Assembly (NCBI RefSeq): GCF_000744825.1 | Contig: NZ_JQMR01000001.1 | Span: 992,001 to 1,056,000 of the forward strand | Source of the DNA: Carnobacterium mobile DSM 4848 | Lineage (GTDB): Bacteria > Bacillota > Bacilli > Lactobacillales > Carnobacteriaceae | DNA length: 64,000 bases | Reading direction: 5' to 3' | Part shown: positions 14,096 to 62,130 of the stretch, piece by piece | How positions within the stretch are numbered: the stretch's first letter is position 1 | Layout of the letters: each line of letters starts with the position of its first letter | The notes under the pieces: model-generated | The model's database searches: none | What the model was told of the DNA's origin: nothing | The model's input: the letters and a program-made list of their open reading frames with translations, nothing else | Made by a program: the position numbers and the translations under genes

Positions 14096-14510
14096 TTCCT
14101 AACTGAAATACTAACCCATGCCGTATTCCATCAATATCAAAATACAAAGTGGAAAAACTTTGCAGATTTCCGCTGCCTCCATTAAAAATATATTGCTTGT
14201 TTGACGGTGTTGTTACATTTTCCGGTAACTGCAATTGATATGTCACTTCTTTTTCTGCTTCAGGAAACGTTCTAAAAGAAATCATGCCTTTCTTTGCCGA
14301 AACATCTATTACAGACCAATTTCCTGATAATACCGCATGATTTTGCGCCATTGTTATGCTGCTCTGCAAATCTTCAATAAATAATTGTGTTGCTGTATCT
14401 TTAATTATTTTTTGAGAAAATACTGTTGGAACACTTAACATCGTAGCTGTGATCAATAAGACTAAAAGCATTTCAATGAATACCATTCCTTGGCAATTTA
14501 ACCTCTTCAT
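14073..14510 (-). CDS. comGD: Competence minor pseudopilin ComGD
   Basis: The 145-residue product has the prepilin N-terminus NCQGMVFIEMLLVLLI, a class III signal with Glu+5, and a C-terminal globular domain. It follows comGC with a 4-base overlap. Its normal transcription from the promoter upstream of comGA is interrupted by the 47-kb prophage. Confidence 0.88.
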   Translation of the reverse strand: MKRLNCQGMVFIEMLLVLLITATMLSVPTVFSQKIIKDTATQLFIEDLQSSITMAQNHAVLSGNWSVIDVSAKKGMISFRTFPEAEKEVTYQLQLPENVTTPSNKQYIFNGGSGNLQSFSTLYFDIDGIRHGLVFQLGSGRYHWD

Positions 14511-14788
14511 GGACTAGTAGACTTAGCGCTGACTTTTCCGTTGCTTATTTCAAGTTTTTCATTTGCCTGCTTTAATTGGGCATCGCTTAGATAATCAGCA
14601 GCTTTCAATACTTCAAAATTAGGTGCTTTTTCATTTTGTTCCATCTCATATAATTCGACTTGAGTTTGTACAACGGTCACAAGTGCTTTCGTACCTTGGT
14701 TATCGACTTTTTGTTTTTGCTGTACTACATTTGGTATGATCAATAACATCAAAATTGAAATCACAAAAAGCACTAAAACCATCTCAAT
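14507..14788 (-). pseudogene. comGC: comGC, 3' part, separated by prophage insertion
   Basis: This is the distal part of the major pseudopilin gene comGC. From the 9-base core it reads IEM-VLVLFVISILMLLI and on to residue 107, the stop at 14507. The matching 5' part is at 62080..62130. Joined at the core the frame is intact and gives GFTLIEM-VLVLFVISIL, a perfect prepilin hydrophobic N-terminus. Integrated, this part has an ATG inside the core but no clear ribosome site, so it probably yields no functional pilin. Confidence 0.95.
14780..14788. repeat. Left attachment-site core of the prophage
   Basis: The 9 bases catctcaat occur here and at 62080..62088, and mark where host comGC sequence meets phage sequence. 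Outside the core the two junctions diverge at once. The crossover falls in the codons for Ile-Glu-Met of ComGC. Confidence 0.9.
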
Positions 14789-31109: not shown

Positions 31110-31158
31110 CTATTCCTCTTCAGGTTCTGGTTCGACTTCTTCGGGATCCTTAGGGTGC
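31110..31158 (-). other. Probable +1 frameshift region extending the tail tube protein
   Basis: The zero frame ends gca-ccc-taa. Shifting +1 from ccc to cct reads aag next and continues as KDPEEVEPEPEEE to a tag at 31110-31112. The extension is acidic and low-complexity, as in known C-terminal extensions of phage tail and capsid proteins. A proline ccc before a stop is a known kind of +1 shift site. Confidence 0.65.
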
Positions 31159-31629
31159 AGGCACAAAGTCAGGTCCTTTTGAGACCACGACAATAATTTG
31201 GAATGCCAAAGCGCCATTGATTTCAGCGCCGTTAAATACTAATGAAAATGCGCCTGTGAACGTAAATGATGTGCCATCCGGATAAGTGATTTTCCAATCG
31301 TAAACGGTATCCGTCTTTTCAGCTGCTTTCAATGTGTTAAAGATTGACTTCCGATACACTGCAGCAAATGTTAAGTTGTCTTGATCCTGCAGACCTTTAA
31401 TGTATTGACGTTTTGAGTCAGTTAATGTTGTTACGTCAACTTTTTCTGGTTCTGAACCAATGTCTGGAATAGAAGTTACTGATCCGATAGTTGTGAATGT
31501 TCCTGGTTCTGCACCAGTTGGTTTATAGCCTAATGTTGACCCTTTAGATAAAAGGCCTACTGGATCATCAGCAAACCGTTGTAAGTCCATTTTGGCTAGT
31601 TTTGTACTGTTTAATAATTGTTTTTTCAT
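31150..31629 (-). CDS. Major tail (tube) protein with Prp-type cleavage motif
   Basis: The start at 31629 has aggagg 8 bases upstream. The 159-residue protein forms the tail tube. It begins with a short basic leader ending KMDLQRFA (residues 13-20), the type of motif cut by Prp protease, then a beta-rich tube fold (TVYDWKITYPDGTSFTFTG). The last sense codon is ccc followed by taa; a +1 shift there would add 13 acidic residues. It lies after the tail-completion gene. Confidence 0.88.
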   Translation of the reverse strand: MKKQLLNSTKLAKMDLQRFADDPVGLLSKGSTLGYKPTGAEPGTFTTIGSVTSIPDIGSEPEKVDVTTLTDSKRQYIKGLQDQDNLTFAAVYRKSIFNTLKAAEKTDTVYDWKITYPDGTSFTFTGAFSLVFNGAEINGALAFQIIVVVSKGPDFVPAP

Positions 31630-33840: not shown

Positions 33841-34908
33841 TTATGCGATTGGTTGAGCTTGGAACACTTCATCAGCAGCTGCGAATGAAGGCAAGGCTAC
33901 AGTAACAGCTTTTTCCCATGTAGAAACTGGGTCAGCACTTTCTTCGTACACGGCAGTAAAGACATTACCAACCATGCTAGTATCGATTGAAGGGTCACGA
34001 GACAAGCGGTTTTCTTCTGCTGTAGGCCCATAGATCGTTTCTCCTAACAAATCATCGTTAAACATAACAAATTTGTTTTCAGGGAAGTAGCGAGCTTTTG
34101 TATAGCTGCCATCTTTATTTTGTTTCCGGTACTTTTCATCATAGGTGCGGATAACTGGCATTCCGTTAGATTGCATAAATGCGTCTAATTCAGCACGAGT
34201 CAATACTTTGCCAGTGTCGCTGCCAAATACAGAAGCTTTCACTTGAGGATGGCGTAGCAAAGCATTCAATACCTTTTTAGAGGTCAATGCACGAGTTGGA
34301 GTTGTGTCCATCGCTTCAATCCAACGATCAATGTCTTCTAAAGGTTTAGCTAGGGGATCTGTCCATAAATCTGTACCAGACAATGCTTCTTTATGATCAG
34401 CTGGCACATTATAGTCAATGGTTGCATCTAAGCCATTTTCATTGATTTTAATTTTACCGTTAGCTAATACTTCCATACGCATTAACTCTGTACGGGCATT
34501 CACTCCACGAACCAATACATCTAAGTCATTAAATACTTGGCTCATCAAGTATTGTTGTTCTGCTGGTGTACGTGGATTTTCCAACGCAATGATATCTTTT
34601 TCTTTCAACTGCATTTTACGTTTGATCAATGCCAATTCCAGAGTTGCTTTAGCAGCCTGACGAGAACCAATTTCAGATTCAGTATCGAATGCATGTACAG
34701 AAGCAATGATTGGTGAGCTTCCGCCACCTGTAATTTGTTCCAACTCTAAGCTTTGTGTTTTACGTGCTGGGAATAATGTTTCTCCTAACAAAACAGGGAG
34801 TTCACGGTTACGCGTGTAGTCCAACACTTCCTTTTGGTTAAATAGATCTAAAATACTTTTAGCAGCAAAACGCTGTAAATTCATTTGAAAATATTTATTT
34901 TTCTTCAT
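33841..34908 (-). CDS. Major capsid protein (phage capsid E-like) with Prp-type cleavage motif
   Basis: The 355-residue protein builds the icosahedral head. It begins YFQMNLQRFA-AKS (cleavage motif at residues 9-15), then LPVLLGETLFPARKTQSLEL and later FVMFNDDLLGETIYGP, which match the major capsid protein E family of HK97 fold seen in A118-like phages. The ATG at 34908 is preferred over an upstream TTG that lies on the ribosome site. It follows a small head protein and the scaffold. Confidence 0.88.
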   Translation of the reverse strand: MKKNKYFQMNLQRFAAKSILDLFNQKEVLDYTRNRELPVLLGETLFPARKTQSLELEQITGGGSSPIIASVHAFDTESEIGSRQAAKATLELALIKRKMQLKEKDIIALENPRTPAEQQYLMSQVFNDLDVLVRGVNARTELMRMEVLANGKIKINENGLDATIDYNVPADHKEALSGTDLWTDPLAKPLEDIDRWIEAMDTTPTRALTSKKVLNALLRHPQVKASVFGSDTGKVLTRAELDAFMQSNGMPVIRTYDEKYRKQNKDGSYTKARYFPENKFVMFNDDLLGETIYGPTAEENRLSRDPSIDTSMVGNVFTAVYEESADPVSTWEKAVTVALPSFAAADEVFQAQPIA

Positions 34909-35266: not shown

Positions 35267-35938
35267 TTAATCCCAAAATGATTTAGTTGCTGGTTTTGAT
35301 TGTTCGTTTAATTGTTTGGCCATTGCTTCACCTTGGCTAATAGCTGTGCTTGTGTTTCCGGAGCCTGGTACATCAGCTGATTGAGCTAATCGCTTATTTA
35401 CACCATCTTCAACTGATTTACGGAATGCTTTTTCAATAGCATCAATAGAAGCATTACAAGAATCTGCATCGGTAAATACGACAACATCAATCAATTCTTT
35501 TGGCAGTTCTTTCTCAGCTAGTTTTTCCAGTGATTGAGCACGCAATTCACGACGAGTGATATCCGCTTCACGTTCGTTGATTTTCTTCAAACGTTCTTGC
35601 TCTTCATGTTCTGCTTTTTGATCAGCAGTCATTTGAGCCATCTTTTCGGCTTCAGTTTTAGCAGCTTCAATTTTAGTTTGAGTATCTGCTTCCCATTTAG
35701 CCCGCGCTGTTTCTAAAGCTTTAGCTGTGCGTTTATCGAAATAGCTGTCACGTTCCGCTTCTGTTGCAAACGTTAAAGGTTCGCCACCTTCTCCGCTAGA
35801 CGTATTTGGATCACCTCCGCCTTTATCTCCTTCGCCGCCTCCTGTTCCAGGATCGTCACCATCAGCGAATAGTTGGAGTTTAAAAGGCATCAAATTTTTA
35901 CTATTTAATAAGCTTTCTTTTAAAGACATTTTTGGCAT
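35267..35938 (-). CDS. Capsid scaffolding protein (DUF4355-like) with Prp-type cleavage motif
   Basis: The 223-residue protein has a leader ending MPFKLQLFA (cleavage motif, residues 17-25), a Gly/Asp-rich linker, a long charged helical coiled coil (about 60-140) and a C-terminal part. This is the layout of DUF4355 scaffolds that assemble inside the procapsid and then leave. It lies before the head protein and major capsid genes. Confidence 0.82.
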   Translation of the reverse strand: MPKMSLKESLLNSKNLMPFKLQLFADGDDPGTGGGEGDKGGGDPNTSSGEGGEPLTFATEAERDSYFDKRTAKALETARAKWEADTQTKIEAAKTEAEKMAQMTADQKAEHEEQERLKKINEREADITRRELRAQSLEKLAEKELPKELIDVVVFTDADSCNASIDAIEKAFRKSVEDGVNKRLAQSADVPGSGNTSTAISQGEAMAKQLNEQSKPATKSFWD

Positions 35939-37469: not shown

Positions 37470-37646
37470 TTATGCATTTGATTTTCTTATTACTTTTTGA
37501 ATATCTTCAATACCAATGTCCTCGAAAACCGGTTCGGTAGCAGAAGGACTGACATCAATCATAAAATGTGTTTCGTCATATTGTTCAATCAACGTTCCTT
37601 TTCTGCCATCTTTTAAAAGAACATCATCATATACTTTTATTTTCAT
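37470..37646 (-). CDS. Putative immunity protein for the MuF toxin domain, 58 residues
   Basis: The ATG overlaps the stop of the MuF gene (atga), so the two are coupled. The product KIKVYDDVLLKDGRKGTLIE followed by strands looks like a small SH3/KOW-type barrel similar in pattern to DUF4926 proteins, which I recall as neighbours of DUF6883 genes. An immunity role is inferred from coupling and from this pattern. Confidence 0.6.
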   Translation of the reverse strand: MKIKVYDDVLLKDGRKGTLIEQYDETHFMIDVSPSATEPVFEDIGIEDIQKVIRKSNA

Positions 37647-39370
37647 CCTTTTGCCTCCTCTATAAAGGTAGTTGTTAAATGAGTACTTTCTCCATTAACT
37701 AACCAAGCGGTCTTTAAATTGACTGGCTCTTTATTTTTATTATATAGAATCATATTCACTTCATATCGTGAACCATATTTGTTGTCGCCTTTATGGATTG
37801 ATGGATAATTTTTAGCATTAGCAATGATTTCATCTTTAAATTCACTGTAGTTTGATAAGTCATATCCAAGTTTAGAAGTTATTAGTTTTCCTTTCGGATA
37901 CCCTGTTTCACTATTTCGATCAAATAAATAATTTACGAATTTAGAATCATCTGCTTTTACTACTTCAGCGTTTGGTAACTTTAACTCCGGATTACTTTTA
38001 AGCTTCATTCTACGATTATAATCTGTTTTAATAAGCTTATAATCCCTGCCCTCATTATACTTCATATCTTGGAAATCATCTAATGTTTTAGGTGTATTTT
38101 CCGGACCAATAACTGATTTATAACGATTGAATTGTTTTAAGTCTGCGTTAAAGTTCTTAACTTTCTTTCTGGCTAACTGTAAATCCTCTTTACCGTGCTG
38201 ATCAATTAGCATCTGCTCCCATTTCTTATAGGAATCCGCATGAGATATTTCAAATTGTTTACCTGAGATTGGATCATTAGCGAATCGTTTCCCGCTTAAT
38301 GTCTTTTCGTTAAACCATGCTCTAGCAACTGATCTACACCAAGGGTGGAAGGGCGGATAGTTTACATTTACTTTCGCTTCAGATACTTTATACTTCTCTC
38401 CATCTTGATCCTGACATAACTTAGACGTTCGTAAATCTAAGGTGGCCACAATGACATAGTACTCAACACCTTGTGCTATCCAACCTTTGAGCTTTCCTTG
38501 CCCGGCCATATAGTTTGCTTCAGTTCTGATTAAACGTCTTGCTACACCCCTAGAAACGTCAAAAACCTTTTGTATCTCTTTGACCATATCTCTTTCAGAC
38601 ATACCTGTCATTGCTTCAACGGTAAAAAGTTCTTCTAATTTCCTGGCTAATAGATCCGTGTCATTCCAAATTCGTTTTGAATAGTTAGAGCCTTGCCAAT
38701 TCGTATCGAGAACGTTCCGGACTTGCTTAGTAGACATTTCTTTGAATTTAGGAATGTCTTTTTCATCTTTAAGTTTAATCGTTTTAATTTTCTTATTCGT
38801 TTCAGAATCTCTGAGAACAATAAATGAATCTGCATCATTAAATGTATAAGTTGGGTACCGGCCATCATCATATAATCTTAAAGCTGATTCAGACTTGCCA
38901 ATGATCGCTTCAGCACTCGCTTGATTGTAGGATTCTTTGATGACATCAATATAGTAATCAGTATACCGCCTAAGCTGCACATCTGCTACTTGTTTAGATA
39001 CCAGATAAGACTTTGCCTTCAAGTCTTCTAATCGAGTGATACGACTCTTAACTGCTAACCCGGTTAAATAGTTTTGCATTTGTTCTTTAACATCTAAGTT
39101 TTTTACAGTTTTGATAAGAGAGCTTAATTCTGCAATTTCATTTGGACTAGCTGAAGTATTTAGTATCTGTTTAACATCTGCTTCTGATAAATCAGTTTTA
39201 GCAAGATAGCGCCTGTATATCTTTTTAACTTCATCCGTTAAATAAGACTGTGCTTTTTGATAGGACTTCATGACTTTGTTTTCAATGACATTCAACTCAT
39301 CATGAACCTTTACATCTTGATCAATCGCTCGTCTATCCCAGTAAGGCAGCTTCTTTTTCTTTTTGGTCAT
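37643..39370 (-). CDS. MuF-family minor head protein with C-terminal DUF6883 toxin-like domain
   Basis: The 575-residue protein has a helical N-terminal head-morphogenesis region and a MuF domain (about 275-350) with TEANYMAGQGKLKGW, ATLDLRTSKLCQDQDG and YPPFHPWCRS. After a linker (350-460) a separate domain spans 464-573 with KLPNAEVV, LGYDLSNYSEF, GSRYEVNMILYNKN and LKTAWLVNG, which matches DUF6883. MuF proteins with variable C-terminal toxin domains are known in temperate phages of Bacillota. The MuF part is expected for SPP1/A118 heads; the toxin part is an addition. Confidence 0.85.
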   Translation of the reverse strand: MTKKKKKLPYWDRRAIDQDVKVHDELNVIENKVMKSYQKAQSYLTDEVKKIYRRYLAKTDLSEADVKQILNTSASPNEIAELSSLIKTVKNLDVKEQMQNYLTGLAVKSRITRLEDLKAKSYLVSKQVADVQLRRYTDYYIDVIKESYNQASAEAIIGKSESALRLYDDGRYPTYTFNDADSFIVLRDSETNKKIKTIKLKDEKDIPKFKEMSTKQVRNVLDTNWQGSNYSKRIWNDTDLLARKLEELFTVEAMTGMSERDMVKEIQKVFDVSRGVARRLIRTEANYMAGQGKLKGWIAQGVEYYVIVATLDLRTSKLCQDQDGEKYKVSEAKVNVNYPPFHPWCRSVARAWFNEKTLSGKRFANDPISGKQFEISHADSYKKWEQMLIDQHGKEDLQLARKKVKNFNADLKQFNRYKSVIGPENTPKTLDDFQDMKYNEGRDYKLIKTDYNRRMKLKSNPELKLPNAEVVKADDSKFVNYLFDRNSETGYPKGKLITSKLGYDLSNYSEFKDEIIANAKNYPSIHKGDNKYGSRYEVNMILYNKNKEPVNLKTAWLVNGESTHLTTTFIEEAKG

Positions 39371-40249: not shown

Positions 40250-40561
40250 TTAAATATTATTTATTACTACGTTATCTGGATACTCTTCTTGTATTCCTTC
40301 TAACGAAAGTAACATCGAGTTCAAAAGAATATTACTATATGCAGTTGGTTCTTTAATCTCCACGCTTGTAAATCCGTGACTTACCGTAGTATCAAAAGTT
40401 GCATCAGTTAAAACTTCTATTCCATTAATCGTTCCAACAACTAATGCTGACACAGCAGCACAAACCACATCGCGTCCAGAAGGAGCATAACCAGCATGAC
40501 CCTCTACTTTGAAAGAAACGATCTCGCCTTTGTCATTCCTGTTAAAAGTTGCTTGAATCAT
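40250..40561 (-). CDS. Prp-family cysteine protease (ribosomal-processing protease homologue)
   Basis: The 103-residue protein has the Prp core EGHAGYAPSGRDVVCAAVSA with His22 and Cys34 in the positions of the catalytic pair of Staphylococcus aureus Prp. Host Prp trims the N-terminus of ribosomal protein L27 after LQFFA and, in phage 80alpha, trims capsid and scaffold proteins at the same motif. Here the gene is in the head cluster, and three structural proteins carry LQxFA leaders, so it is probably a dedicated maturation protease. Confidence 0.85.
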   Translation of the reverse strand: MIQATFNRNDKGEIVSFKVEGHAGYAPSGRDVVCAAVSALVVGTINGIEVLTDATFDTTVSHGFTSVEIKEPTAYSNILLNSMLLSLEGIQEEYPDNVVINNI

Positions 40562-40839
40562 TCTGCCACCTTCTCATATAACGTTTCAAAGTAAGTGCCA
40601 TTCATGACAATATATCCCTCATCAGTTCGAATGATATAATCACCAAAAGAAGCGCGTTCTGTTCCTTTCATCGTTTGGACGTATAATCCTTTGATTTCTA
40701 CCCTTTCAGCAAATTCTTCTACTTCTCCAACCATTAAGTGATCTTCTCCAACAAAAGATAAAACTTCATTCAGGATTTCTTTCTGGATTTGAATCGCATC
40801 AATAATTTCTTTCTTAATCTTCTGATACTTCATCTTCAT
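40558..40839 (-). CDS. PGDYG-like small phage protein
   Basis: The 93-residue protein contains ERASFGDYIIRTDEGYIVMN and FETLYEK, a diverged PGDYG pattern. It overlaps the portal gene by 26 bases and the Prp gene by 4. Function unknown. Confidence 0.68.
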   Translation of the reverse strand: MKMKYQKIKKEIIDAIQIQKEILNEVLSFVGEDHLMVGEVEEFAERVEIKGLYVQTMKGTERASFGDYIIRTDEGYIVMNGTYFETLYEKVAE

Positions 40840-42217
40840 CCTCCTCTGGTTCGTCGTCTAAGTTATCGTGACTAGCACCTGTACCGCCCATTTTATTGGC
40901 TAATTCAATGTTTTGTTTCTTTTGATCAATCAGTTTCTTGATTTCTTCGCCCGGATCATCAATATCTGGCAGCCATGAAAGAAGAGTTTCTAAAGGTAAG
41001 ATTTCAACCGCCTTAACAATTTGATCGATGATATCACTTGTGTTGATTGGTAAGTTAGGTTTGATTTTGATTTTAGCCCCACTAGCATCAACATTTCCAC
41101 CTTTTACATTCAATACATTAGCCATCAATTGTAGCCTTTGTCGCAATCCTTTAGTCATGTAGCGTGATTTAATGGACATCAACTGTAGCAGACCAAACAA
41201 TTTATATTTCATAGCCTCTCCACTAATGTTCCCAGCAAAGTTCTCGTCATTCATGTTAGGCACATAAGTGACCTTATGAATATTGTCCTCGATTGATTTA
41301 GAAAGCAGCTGGACCTGAGACTCATCGAAAGTCTTAGTCAGCCATTCAGCATCCGCTCCATCTTCTCCTTTGCCAGGAGCCTCAATCAAACCATCTTTGA
41401 CACTACCTTCCAATGTAAACCCATAGATAATAAGCAATGCATCAATGAAAGCTTCCTTGTCGCTTATTCGGTCACTCTGTAGCACGTTGTATGCATCAAC
41501 CAAAGTGATAGCTTGCTCAAAGTCACCTTGCTTTTCTTCATTGTTACGGTACTCAATGACTTGTACACCTCCGAAGTATTGAGGTACTGCTTTGTCGATT
41601 GTCACATCAGTTAAGGCTAAATCCTTCGCTTTACGTGTGATGATAGTCTTAGGTGTGTAAATATTGAACAACCATCCAATCAACTTGCCGTTTAAATCAA
41701 ATTTCTTGTAATAATGAACGGCAAATAAAGGATTCTTTTCAATCGTGTCATCTGTTACTAAGAAAATACCCCGCGGATCTACAACTTTAATTCTTGTTTC
41801 AGTTTTGTTTTCCTTACCTGGAACTTTTCTTAGGTAAATTAGTTCTAAAGCAATACCGAAAACAGATAAGTCTTTCTCCAATTCCGTATCATGAGAAACA
41901 ACGTCCATTTCTTCGTATGCTTCTAAAACTGGATTAATATTCTTATCCTTTCCGGAACTGTATGAGATAGGATTTCCAACTAAGAAGCCAACATTCATAT
42001 CCGTCACATACTTAGCATGATTGACCATCACTTTATTGTTTTTCGTATTTTCATTATCTAGCTTTCGTTCCAACACTTCATGTTTACCATCATAATAATC
42101 TGATAGCTTTTGAAGTCGTTCTAATTCTTTTTGATGCTGATCTATGCAGTATTTTAAAACAGCGGTAGAAGGATTGTTGATATCTCCTGCCAATTCTCTA
42201 TCAATTGCTATCGCCAT
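40814..42217 (-). CDS. Portal protein, SPP1 gp6-like
   Basis: The 467-residue protein forms the dodecameric ring through which DNA enters and leaves the head. It shows the family pattern: LQKLSDYYDGKHEVLERKL near the N-terminus, NHAKYVTDMNVGFLVGNPIS, and a stem/clip region with YVPNMNDENFAGNISGEAMK. It lies directly after the large terminase gene. Confidence 0.92.
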   Translation of the reverse strand: MAIAIDRELAGDINNPSTAVLKYCIDQHQKELERLQKLSDYYDGKHEVLERKLDNENTKNNKVMVNHAKYVTDMNVGFLVGNPISYSSGKDKNINPVLEAYEEMDVVSHDTELEKDLSVFGIALELIYLRKVPGKENKTETRIKVVDPRGIFLVTDDTIEKNPLFAVHYYKKFDLNGKLIGWLFNIYTPKTIITRKAKDLALTDVTIDKAVPQYFGGVQVIEYRNNEEKQGDFEQAITLVDAYNVLQSDRISDKEAFIDALLIIYGFTLEGSVKDGLIEAPGKGEDGADAEWLTKTFDESQVQLLSKSIEDNIHKVTYVPNMNDENFAGNISGEAMKYKLFGLLQLMSIKSRYMTKGLRQRLQLMANVLNVKGGNVDASGAKIKIKPNLPINTSDIIDQIVKAVEILPLETLLSWLPDIDDPGEEIKKLIDQKKQNIELANKMGGTGASHDNLDDEPEEDEDEVSED

Positions 42218-60624: not shown

Positions 60625-62058
60625 ATGAAAAAAGTAGCAATATACGCTAGAGTTAGTACCTTGAATCAAGCGAAAGAAGGATATTCGATAGATGGTCAAA
60701 TAAATGCTTTAACCAAATATTGCGAAGCTATGGATTGGAAGATTGTTGACACCTATACTGATGCTGGATATTCTGGCTCAAGTATTGATAGACCAGCCAT
60801 GAAGCGAATGCTTTTAGATATCGAAAACAAAAGATTAGACGCTGTTATCGTTTATAAATTAGACCGGCTTTCAAGAAACGTCCAAGATACTTTGGACTTA
60901 ATAAAAAATGTTTTTAATGAGAATAGCATTGATTTTATTTCACTTAGCGAAAATATTGATACTTCATCAGCAATGGGTGGGTTGTTTTTAACACTTTTAT
61001 CCGCTATTGCTGAATTCGAACGCGAACAGATAACCGAGCGCATGCATATGGGGAAGGTTGGACGAGCGAGATCTGGAAAACCGATGGGATGGACAAGGCC
61101 GCCATTTGGGTACACTTATGCTGATGGAAATTATATTGTCGACGATTTTAAAGCATTGATAATTAAAAAGATATATAAAGAATACCTTTCTGGAACTTCT
61201 ATTACGAAATTGAGAGATAAACTAAACGAAGAGGGACATATTGGAAAAGACATCAAGTGGTCTTACCGTGCTGTCCGACTTATTTTAGATAATCCTGTTT
61301 ATGCTGGTTACATAAACTTTAAAGAGGAAGTTTATAAAGGTAATCATAAGCCCATCGTCTCAAAAGAAACTTTTGATAAAGTGCAATTAGAATTAGATAT
61401 TCGTCAAAAGCAAGCTTACGCTAATAATAACAACCCTCGTCCTTTCCAAGGGAAATATATGTTAAGTGGCTTAGCTCGGTGTGGCTATTGTGGTGCGCCT
61501 TTAGAATCAACGTTAGGCAACATACGTAAAGATGGTACAAGACTTAAAAAGTATCAATGCATGAATCGAACTGTTAAATTAAGAACGACTAATTATAACA
61601 ATAATAAAAAATGTGTTTCAGGTTTTTATCACATGAATGTACTAGAAGAATATGTAGTAGATGAAATATCTAAGCTTCAAATGAATCCTAAAACTGCTTT
61701 TGAACAAACAGAAACAAAAAGTGAAGATCATACTGAAATTTATGAACAAAGGATAATCAGCATCGATAAGAAAATAAATAAATTATCTGATTTGTATATG
61801 AATGATCTTATCAGTTTAGAGGATATGCAACTTAAAGCTAAATCTTTAAAAGATGAAAGAAGTAATCTGATAGATAAAATTTATCGTTCTGAAAATAACC
61901 TTAAAAATATAAAAAAAGAAAAAGCTCAAACCTACTTGGATAATTTAGAAAAGAATATAAACGAAGAAACTTATGAGAATAAAAAGAAAATTATAAATAT
62001 CTTGATTGAAAAAGTTTATGTGAAAGCTGATGAAATCAAGGTTAATTGGAAGTTCTAA
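60625..62058 (+). CDS. int: Large serine integrase, TP901-1 type
   Basis: The 477-residue recombinase has the resolvase domain with catalytic Ser11 in YARVSTLNQAKEGYSIDGQI, VIYKLDRLSRNVQDTL-type helices (KLDRLSRNVQDTLDLIKNVF) and SAMGGLFLTLLSAIAEFERE. The recombinase domain (about 150-270) and a zinc ribbon follow (ARCGYCGAPL, KYQCMNR, KKCVSG), then a long coiled coil for synapsis control. It closely resembles TP901-1 integrase in layout and motifs. It ends 21 bases before the attachment core. Confidence 0.96.
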   Translation: MKKVAIYARVSTLNQAKEGYSIDGQINALTKYCEAMDWKIVDTYTDAGYSGSSIDRPAMKRMLLDIENKRLDAVIVYKLDRLSRNVQDTLDLIKNVFNENSIDFISLSENIDTSSAMGGLFLTLLSAIAEFEREQITERMHMGKVGRARSGKPMGWTRPPFGYTYADGNYIVDDFKALIIKKIYKEYLSGTSITKLRDKLNEEGHIGKDIKWSYRAVRLILDNPVYAGYINFKEEVYKGNHKPIVSKETFDKVQLELDIRQKQAYANNNNPRPFQGKYMLSGLARCGYCGAPLESTLGNIRKDGTRLKKYQCMNRTVKLRTTNYNNNKKCVSGFYHMNVLEEYVVDEISKLQMNPKTAFEQTETKSEDHTEIYEQRIISIDKKINKLSDLYMNDLISLEDMQLKAKSLKDERSNLIDKIYRSENNLKNIKKEKAQTYLDNLEKNINEETYENKKKIINILIEKVYVKADEIKVNWKF

Positions 62059-62079
62059 CTAAACATATTTACTATACAT

Positions 62080-62088
62080 CATCTCAAT
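62080..62088. repeat. Right attachment-site core of the prophage
   Basis: Second copy of catctcaat, joining phage sequence on its left to the 5' part of comGC on its right. Confidence 0.9.
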
Positions 62089-62130
62089 TAAAGTGAAACC
62101 GTTATCATTTAACTTTTTTTGTTTTCTCAT
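62080..62130 (-). pseudogene. comGC: comGC, 5' part (17 codons), separated by prophage insertion
   Basis: The ATG overlaps the comGB stop (taatg). The reading MRKQKKLNDNGFTLIEM is a complete prepilin leader and start of the pilin helix. Read on into the phage it adds MYSKYV-type residues and stops at 62059, giving a 23-residue peptide. The rest of the gene is at 14507..14788. Confidence 0.95.

Follow-up and report, generated by a model that had tools for sequence, protein, structure and literature searches.

A Prp-family gene and leader-bearing structural genes in a Carnobacterium prophage

The window, a 64,000-nucleotide stretch from the 2.63 Mb genome of Carnobacterium mobile DSM 4848 (RefSeq assembly GCF_000744825.1, contig NZ_JQMR01000001.1, positions 992,001 to 1,056,000), contains a prophage that encodes a homologue of Prp, the cysteine protease that processes ribosomal protein L27. 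The scaffold, major capsid and tail tube proteins of this prophage begin with short leaders that end in the Prp motif LQxF/A, where the slash marks the predicted cut, x is residue P2, and the Phe and Ala are P1 and P1'. Lengths below are in amino acids (aa), and starts were placed by ribosome-binding sites (RBS) where this is stated.

40250-40561, minus strand: phage-encoded Prp-family cysteine protease, 103 aa; Pfam PF04327, 1.8e-29; predicted catalytic His22 and Cys34
35867-35938, minus strand: scaffold leader, 24 residues, predicted cut KLQLF/A, taken from the published Prp motif; RBS-based start
34867-34908, minus strand: capsid leader, 14 residues, predicted cut NLQRF/A; RBS-based start
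31573-31629, minus strand: tail tube leader, 19 residues, predicted cut DLQRF/A; RBS-based start
35267-35938, minus strand: scaffolding protein (DUF4355/Gp46-like), 223 aa; PF14265, 9.4e-25; phrog_172, 3.5e-53
33841-34908, minus strand: major capsid protein (Phage_cap_E); PF03864, 5.1e-44; start by RBS
31150-31629, minus strand: tail tube protein (Phage_tail_3); PF08813, 6.9e-11; phrog_158, 1.2e-24; start by RBS
40814-42217, minus strand: SPP1-type portal protein; PF05133, 7.6e-102; prp lies just downstream, with one 93-aa open reading frame (ORF) between
40558-40839: the 93-aa ORF between portal and prp; weak matches only, to PHROGs of unknown function
37643-39370, minus strand: minor head protein with Mu F domain; PF04233, 3.8e-12; downstream of prp, with one 267-aa ORF between

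The 103-aa ORF matches PF04327 (Peptidase_Prp) with 102 bits against a cut-off of 27, and it also matches phrog_4478 'peptidase'. These are its only matches in Pfam and PHROGs at E <= 0.001, and no HK97-type prohead protease family is among them. Alignment places His22, Cys34, Gly21, Gly29, Asp31 and Ser38 in the protein, and functional roles for these six residues are described in excerpts of PMC9405229. An earlier note on this DNA had claimed a Prp homologue that retains His22 and Cys34, which the profile match and both residues bear out. A Prp fold is predicted: the AlphaFold2 model (pLDDT 87) finds its best Foldseek match in 7kld, the Staphylococcus aureus Prp-substrate complex (TM 0.90). 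On the NCBIfam equivalog for the L27-maturase Prp, the ORF scores 79.7 bits against 135, and the host's own copy also falls below at 110.2. That host copy is a second, chromosomal Prp encoded between L21 and L27, and it is 49% identical to the phage protein in alignment. The host L27 is of the long type and begins MLKMNLQFFA (site LQFF/A). The phage gene sits near the portal gene and not between rplU and rpmA.

The starts at 35938 (scaffold), 34908 (capsid) and 31629 (tail) have the best-looking ribosome-binding sites, as judged by eye; the ORFs also allow starts 7 codons further upstream at a TTG for the capsid and 16 codons further upstream for the tail tube. The resulting leaders of 24, 14 and 19 residues are close to the 15-25 residues given earlier, and the claim of three structural proteins with LQxFA leaders holds. 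Chance occurrence of the motif can be rejected: across 25 loci after de-duplication, 23 of them with Prp, 62 of 338 ORFs carry it in residues 3-56, compared with a mean of 2.3 and a maximum of 9 in 200 shuffles. Deeper in the ORFs, residues 56-110 have it in 13 of 277 and residues 110-164 in none of 132. Homologues that have no leader begin exactly at, or close to, the N-terminus predicted for the mature protein (MDFAGLLSKG and MATFAGLLSKG for the tail protein, MTTIADLF for the capsid). Capsids with leaders span different families (PF03864, PF20036, PF25209 and PF05065), and only ten columns are invariant when nine mixed capsids are aligned, four of them being the N, L, Q and F of the leader.

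Distribution of the Prp and leader module

Profile scans for Prp-, portal-, 80alpha- and A7-type loci were each confined to the best 80 loci. From IMG/VR, 77 Prp-anchored loci were analyzed out of the best 80 of 257 relatives, and 71 of them have one or more leaders downstream. Leaders occur in all 56 loci with at least 4.5 kb of downstream sequence (three in 27, two in 20 and one in 9), which represent 44 distinct Prp proteins. As a control, a profile search of genome contigs was used, which gave prp loci of hosts (an L27 rule identifies 59 of 80 as such). Every one of the 74 contig loci with 4.5 kb or more of downstream sequence has a leader on L27, and a leader on something other than L27 is present in 4 of the 74.

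Portal-anchored loci (the best 80 of 237) carry Prp in 71 cases, a share that is biased upward because the portal model was built from Prp-carrying phages. Among Prp-carrying phages de-duplicated at 95% and with at least 7.5 kb downstream, leaders are found on 22 of 23 scaffolds, 20 of 23 capsids and 16 of 23 tail tubes. The one apparent scaffold exception reads LQLF/T, and one of the three capsid exceptions reads LQRF/G. Scaffolds and tail proteins were counted with models trimmed of their leaders, since an untrimmed scaffold model picks up L27 as well by way of the leader. Without any residue filter, His22, Asp31 and Cys34 are present in all 129 distinct Prp matches from phage loci; the Ser38 position is Thr in 12 of them and Ala in one. 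Named phages with Prp by the portal include Enterococcus phiFL3A, Brochothrix BL3, Oenococcus phiS13, Lactococcus PLgT-1 and TP712, and Latilactobacillus TMW 1.1447 P1, and these have leaders on one to three of the scaffold, capsid and tail tube. Judged from sequence, the module of Prp and leaders is widespread in phages.

Two INPHARED entries that looked like further Prp phages (L041 and L042) are actually bacterial prp-L27 loci and were rejected. A different arrangement is seen in four loci (L053, L073, L083 and L100), where Prp lies upstream of the capsid gene, the capsid has a leader and no scaffold leader was seen; the gene order of L053, whose capsid is of the HK97 type (PF05065), was checked.

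The leader might instead be mainly an assembly signal, with Prp acting as a leader-binding chaperone and the cut being of little importance. According to excerpts of PMC5744158, the scaffold leader of phage 80alpha is essential even though cleavage of its scaffold and capsid is dispensable, and an uncleavable capsid is viable. The review PMC9405229 discusses a chaperone role for Prp in ribosome assembly. The catalytic residues found in 129 of 129 phage Prps argue the other way, as does the fact that unrelated families of capsid and tail proteins keep the motif through P1', and we regard a chaperone as doubtful but worth keeping in mind.

Prophages in hosts that lack Prp

Prp is matched in 104 of 151 genomes of one host family (f9), which is probably Lactobacillaceae as its host Prps group with those of named Limosilactobacillus and Lactobacillus; the hosts of database genomes are inferred throughout. 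No Prp other than that of the prophage was found in two genomes, G149 and G188, and eight congeners have no Prp match even at E <= 10. The L21 and L27 genes adjoin with no ORF between them in both genomes. The L27 of G149 begins MLEKLQNLIKLAHHKGGG and has no motif, and that of G188 begins MEMHNLQFLAHHKGGG. The G149 prophage encodes three leaders and the G188 prophage two, all of which end in LQRFA. Over 12 kb the G149 prophage is about 70% identical in DNA sequence to the Oenococcus phage phiS13, so its host is probably an Oenococcus.

Prp-less prophages can be compared between the two kinds of host. An LQxFA leader occurs in none of 20 other Prp-less, portal-bearing regions of Prp-less hosts (the strongest 20 of 25 portal places, from 46 of 47 Prp-less genomes). 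It occurs in 6 of 17 Prp-less prophage regions of Prp-positive hosts (all 17 portal places from 48 of 104 genomes, one region being only 4.5 kb), a significant difference (Fisher p = 0.005). Each of the six leaders is on one scaffold-sized protein of 211-249 aa with Tyr or Phe at P2, and three of these proteins matched the scaffold model. The association of leaders with host Prp is support and not proof, as the portals are distant from that of the window and come from few host genera.

Genomes of f9 that have no host Prp retain an N-terminal extension on L27, in some cases with NLQ[LMF]F (loci L281-L283, L285, L287, L388, L389, L391, L392, L395, L437, L439-L449, L451, L452, L454-L456 and L458), and the L21-L27 gap has no ORF in six of these genomes. 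The long L27 in these genomes disagrees with a statement in PMC9405229 that every species with a long L27 encodes Prp.

A third possibility is that phage Prp chiefly acts on the host L27 or on host translation during infection, as its membership in the same family and the partly shared motif might suggest. The position of prp in the head module near the portal, the virion leaders that accompany it in all 56 loci with enough sequence, and its presence in G149, where the host L27 has no motif, make this highly improbable.

Residue P2 of the predicted cleavage site

The P2 residue differs sharply between phages with and without their own Prp. Phages with Prp have Phe, Tyr or His there in 10 of 173 unique leader strings, and phages without it in 35 of 38; loci anchored on the tail tube protein (TTP) with no visible Prp, and Prp-less leaders with less than 3.5 kb upstream, were dropped from this set. 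A few chance ORFs remain on both sides, including two of the three non-aromatic Prp-less strings (L463 and L464). When proteins are clustered at 40% identity and each cluster is scored by its majority, P2 is mostly aromatic or His in 0 of 25 clusters with Prp and 8 of 9 without (p = 5e-7). The corresponding counts are 0 of 63 and 19 of 20 at 60% identity, and 6 of 120 and 28 of 29 at 80% identity. Three of the 40% clusters mix phages with and without Prp; in the two that are capsid clusters, P2 is Tyr, Phe or His in the Prp-less members and some other residue in 11 of the 12 members with Prp.

A pair of sister phages of the phiFL3A type shows the same difference at close range. The portal, scaffold and capsid proteins of L152, which has Prp, are 91%, 90% and 93% identical to those of L173 and L178, which have none. 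The capsid site is LQIFA in L152 and LQYFA in the Prp-less pair, which also has no tail leader. Within single phages, P2 is concordant in 55 of 88 pairs of leaders, compared with a mean of 24.5 and a maximum of 39 in 5000 shuffles that are uncorrected for relatedness and whose slots do not strictly separate the three proteins. This comparison covers the 44 of 63 phages that have at least two leaders.

Host L27 proteins have Phe (65), Leu (48), Tyr (5), Met (1) or Arg (1) at P2 (n = 120, after setting aside 5 of 125 ORFs with no motif in the first 30 residues). Leu is therefore common ground between the phage leaders and host L27, and Arg and Lys are rare or absent in the latter. The specificity of the phage enzyme probably differs in part from that of the host Prp. 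Residue 42 of the protease is of interest here, as excerpts of PMC9405229 describe a contact between Phe42 of S. aureus Prp and P1-P2. Of 102 host Prps, 95 have Ile, Val, Phe or Leu at this position; of 63 phage Prps, which were chosen by residue pattern, 20 have Gln. No firm rule emerges that links residue 42 to P2 in these proteins, and we do not claim one: Gln42 goes with Leu- or Met-like P2 residues in 39 of 42 cases, but the pairing of an acidic residue 42 with Arg or Lys (9 of 12) comes mostly from one clade.

The enzyme that cuts the leaders

The host Prp could do the cutting, in which case the phage copy would be redundant, a dosage supplement or a relic. Host Prp cuts the 80alpha capsid and scaffold (PMC5744158, in excerpt), and leaders are found in 73 of the best 80 80alpha-like loci (two each) with no Prp in any of the 80. 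Scans with 80alpha and A7 gave near-identical 80alpha-like phages, and these counts cover the 80alpha loci. The window host likewise has Prp and a long L27. Because Leu at P2 is common to phage leaders and host L27, the specificities overlap, and the host Prp might cut the window scaffold too. This explanation has to contend with leader-bearing prophages in hosts that have no other Prp, with the absence of LQxFA from all 20 Prp-less prophage regions of Prp-less hosts, with the P2 split and with the conservation of His, Asp and Cys across all 129 distinct phage Prps; we consider it unlikely.

Several observations count against a phage-owned system. The window host has a Prp of its own, leaders occur in phages that encode none, and cleavage is dispensable in 80alpha. 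Six of the 77 Prp-anchored loci have no leader; all six have less than 4.5 kb downstream, and one of them (L086) has 4.1 kb. The capsids of two Prp-carrying phages (L198 and L200) are truly leaderless, and 32 of 64 tail tubes of Prp-carrying loci have no leader before de-duplication. Leu is the commonest P2 residue in phages with their own Prp (77 of 173), and it is also common in host L27 (48 of 120). Phylogeny is handled in the P2 counts by clustering only. A looser motif is present in 7 of 20 regions of Prp-less hosts and 9 of 17 of Prp-positive hosts, although the extra matches were judged to be chance by residue, size and depth.

With these points weighed, the window ORF is very probably a dedicated Prp-family virion-maturation protease that belongs to a maturation system owned by the phage. 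The family, the active-site residues, the proximity to the portal gene and the three leaders are seen in the sequence, and the fold is predicted. Three lines of evidence suggest that the phage enzyme cuts the leaders: the prophages of G149 and G188 pair Prp with LQRFA leaders in hosts that have no other Prp, where Prp-less prophage regions have no LQxFA, P2 is split between phages with and without Prp, and leaderless homologues begin near the predicted mature N-terminus. During assembly, phage Prp would cut between Phe and Ala on the scaffold, capsid and tail tube, three abundant virion proteins that self-assemble. A Prp of its own would free the phage from the host L27-processing enzyme, and P2 would have shifted away from the aromatic and His residues used by Prp-less phages. 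The earlier note had proposed a self-encoded enzyme with matched substrates that forms an autonomous system. Comparative genomics supports the enzyme and its matched substrates, and autonomy is supported for G149 and G188, where the host has no Prp; for the phage in the window, whose host has both Prp and an L27 with the LQFF/A site, autonomy is no more than a possibility.

We lean, with no great confidence, towards a broader reading in which a single code for proteolytic maturation exists in two states among Firmicutes phages. Phages that depend on the host would have an aromatic residue or His at P2 that suits the host Prp, and autonomous phages would combine their own Prp with non-aromatic P2 residues on the scaffold, capsid and tail tube. 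A phage that gains or loses prp would later have its sites re-coded and would acquire or shed the tail leader, and autonomy would open hosts that have lost Prp.

Origin and chromosomal setting

A tree built from 63 phage rows and 46 of the 102 host rows separates phage Prps, in several clusters, from those of hosts. It has few columns, many open forks and poor resolution; the phage label changes 5 times compared with 35 in shuffles. A recent capture of prp from this host was considered and rejected, as the phage and host copies are not neighbors in the tree.

The prophage encodes a serine recombinase (60625-62058) and seems to be inserted in a comGC-like pilin gene whose parts lie at 14507-14782 and about 62058-62130. 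One side encodes the FTLIEM N-terminus and the other VLVLFVISIL, and T2SSF and T2SSE genes adjoin. The left fragment gives only a weak, unrelated Pfam match.

Relation to known proteases

The window protein shares its family, predicted fold, active-site residues and LQxF/A site with host Prp (MEROPS C108, YsxB). It differs in being phage-borne near a portal gene and not located between rplU and rpmA, in having the tail tube as an extra predicted substrate, and in the mostly non-aromatic P2 of phages that encode it. HK97-type prohead proteases likewise are encoded near the portal and act in head maturation, but they have a different fold from Prp, and in the window phage a tail protein is also a predicted substrate. 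The protease of phage Cp-1, which we presume to be orf13, has weak profile similarity to the window Prp (hhalign probability 80%), and its head protein has no LQxFA in the first 60 residues. Excerpts of PMC12445089 describe this phage-encoded enzyme of the same MEROPS clan, CR, as stripping 48 N-terminal residues from the major head protein, the only substrate described there. According to PMC9405229, the Cp-1 enzyme is the other member of clan CR and 80alpha has no protease of its own.

The tail protein of phi13 has a leader (LNLQHF/A) like those of Prp phages, as already noted in PMC5744158, and phi13 has no Prp of its own. Leaders on tail proteins are not peculiar to phages that encode Prp. 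In our set phi13 (L406) combines an annotated head maturation protease of its own with the Prp-type tail leader. Searches of open-access literature, parts of it read as excerpts, turned up no account of LQxFA leaders together with a Prp encoded by the phage, and the key Prp papers of 2015 and 2017 may contain an earlier report. The action of host Prp on 80alpha proteins, the phi13 tail leader and the related Cp-1 capsid protease are known; the proposed phage-owned Prp and leader system would be new as a variant.

Implications

If this interpretation is right, then a phage gene recorded merely as 'peptidase' or 'ribosomal protein, domain DUF464' is the maturation protease of many Firmicutes phages, and its substrates can be read from sequence. 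The two-state P2 code would be a natural system for studying co-evolution of enzyme and substrate, and it would show how phages could live in bacteria that lost Prp. It would also bear on Prp as an antibiotic target, where prophages could perhaps supply a second enzyme.
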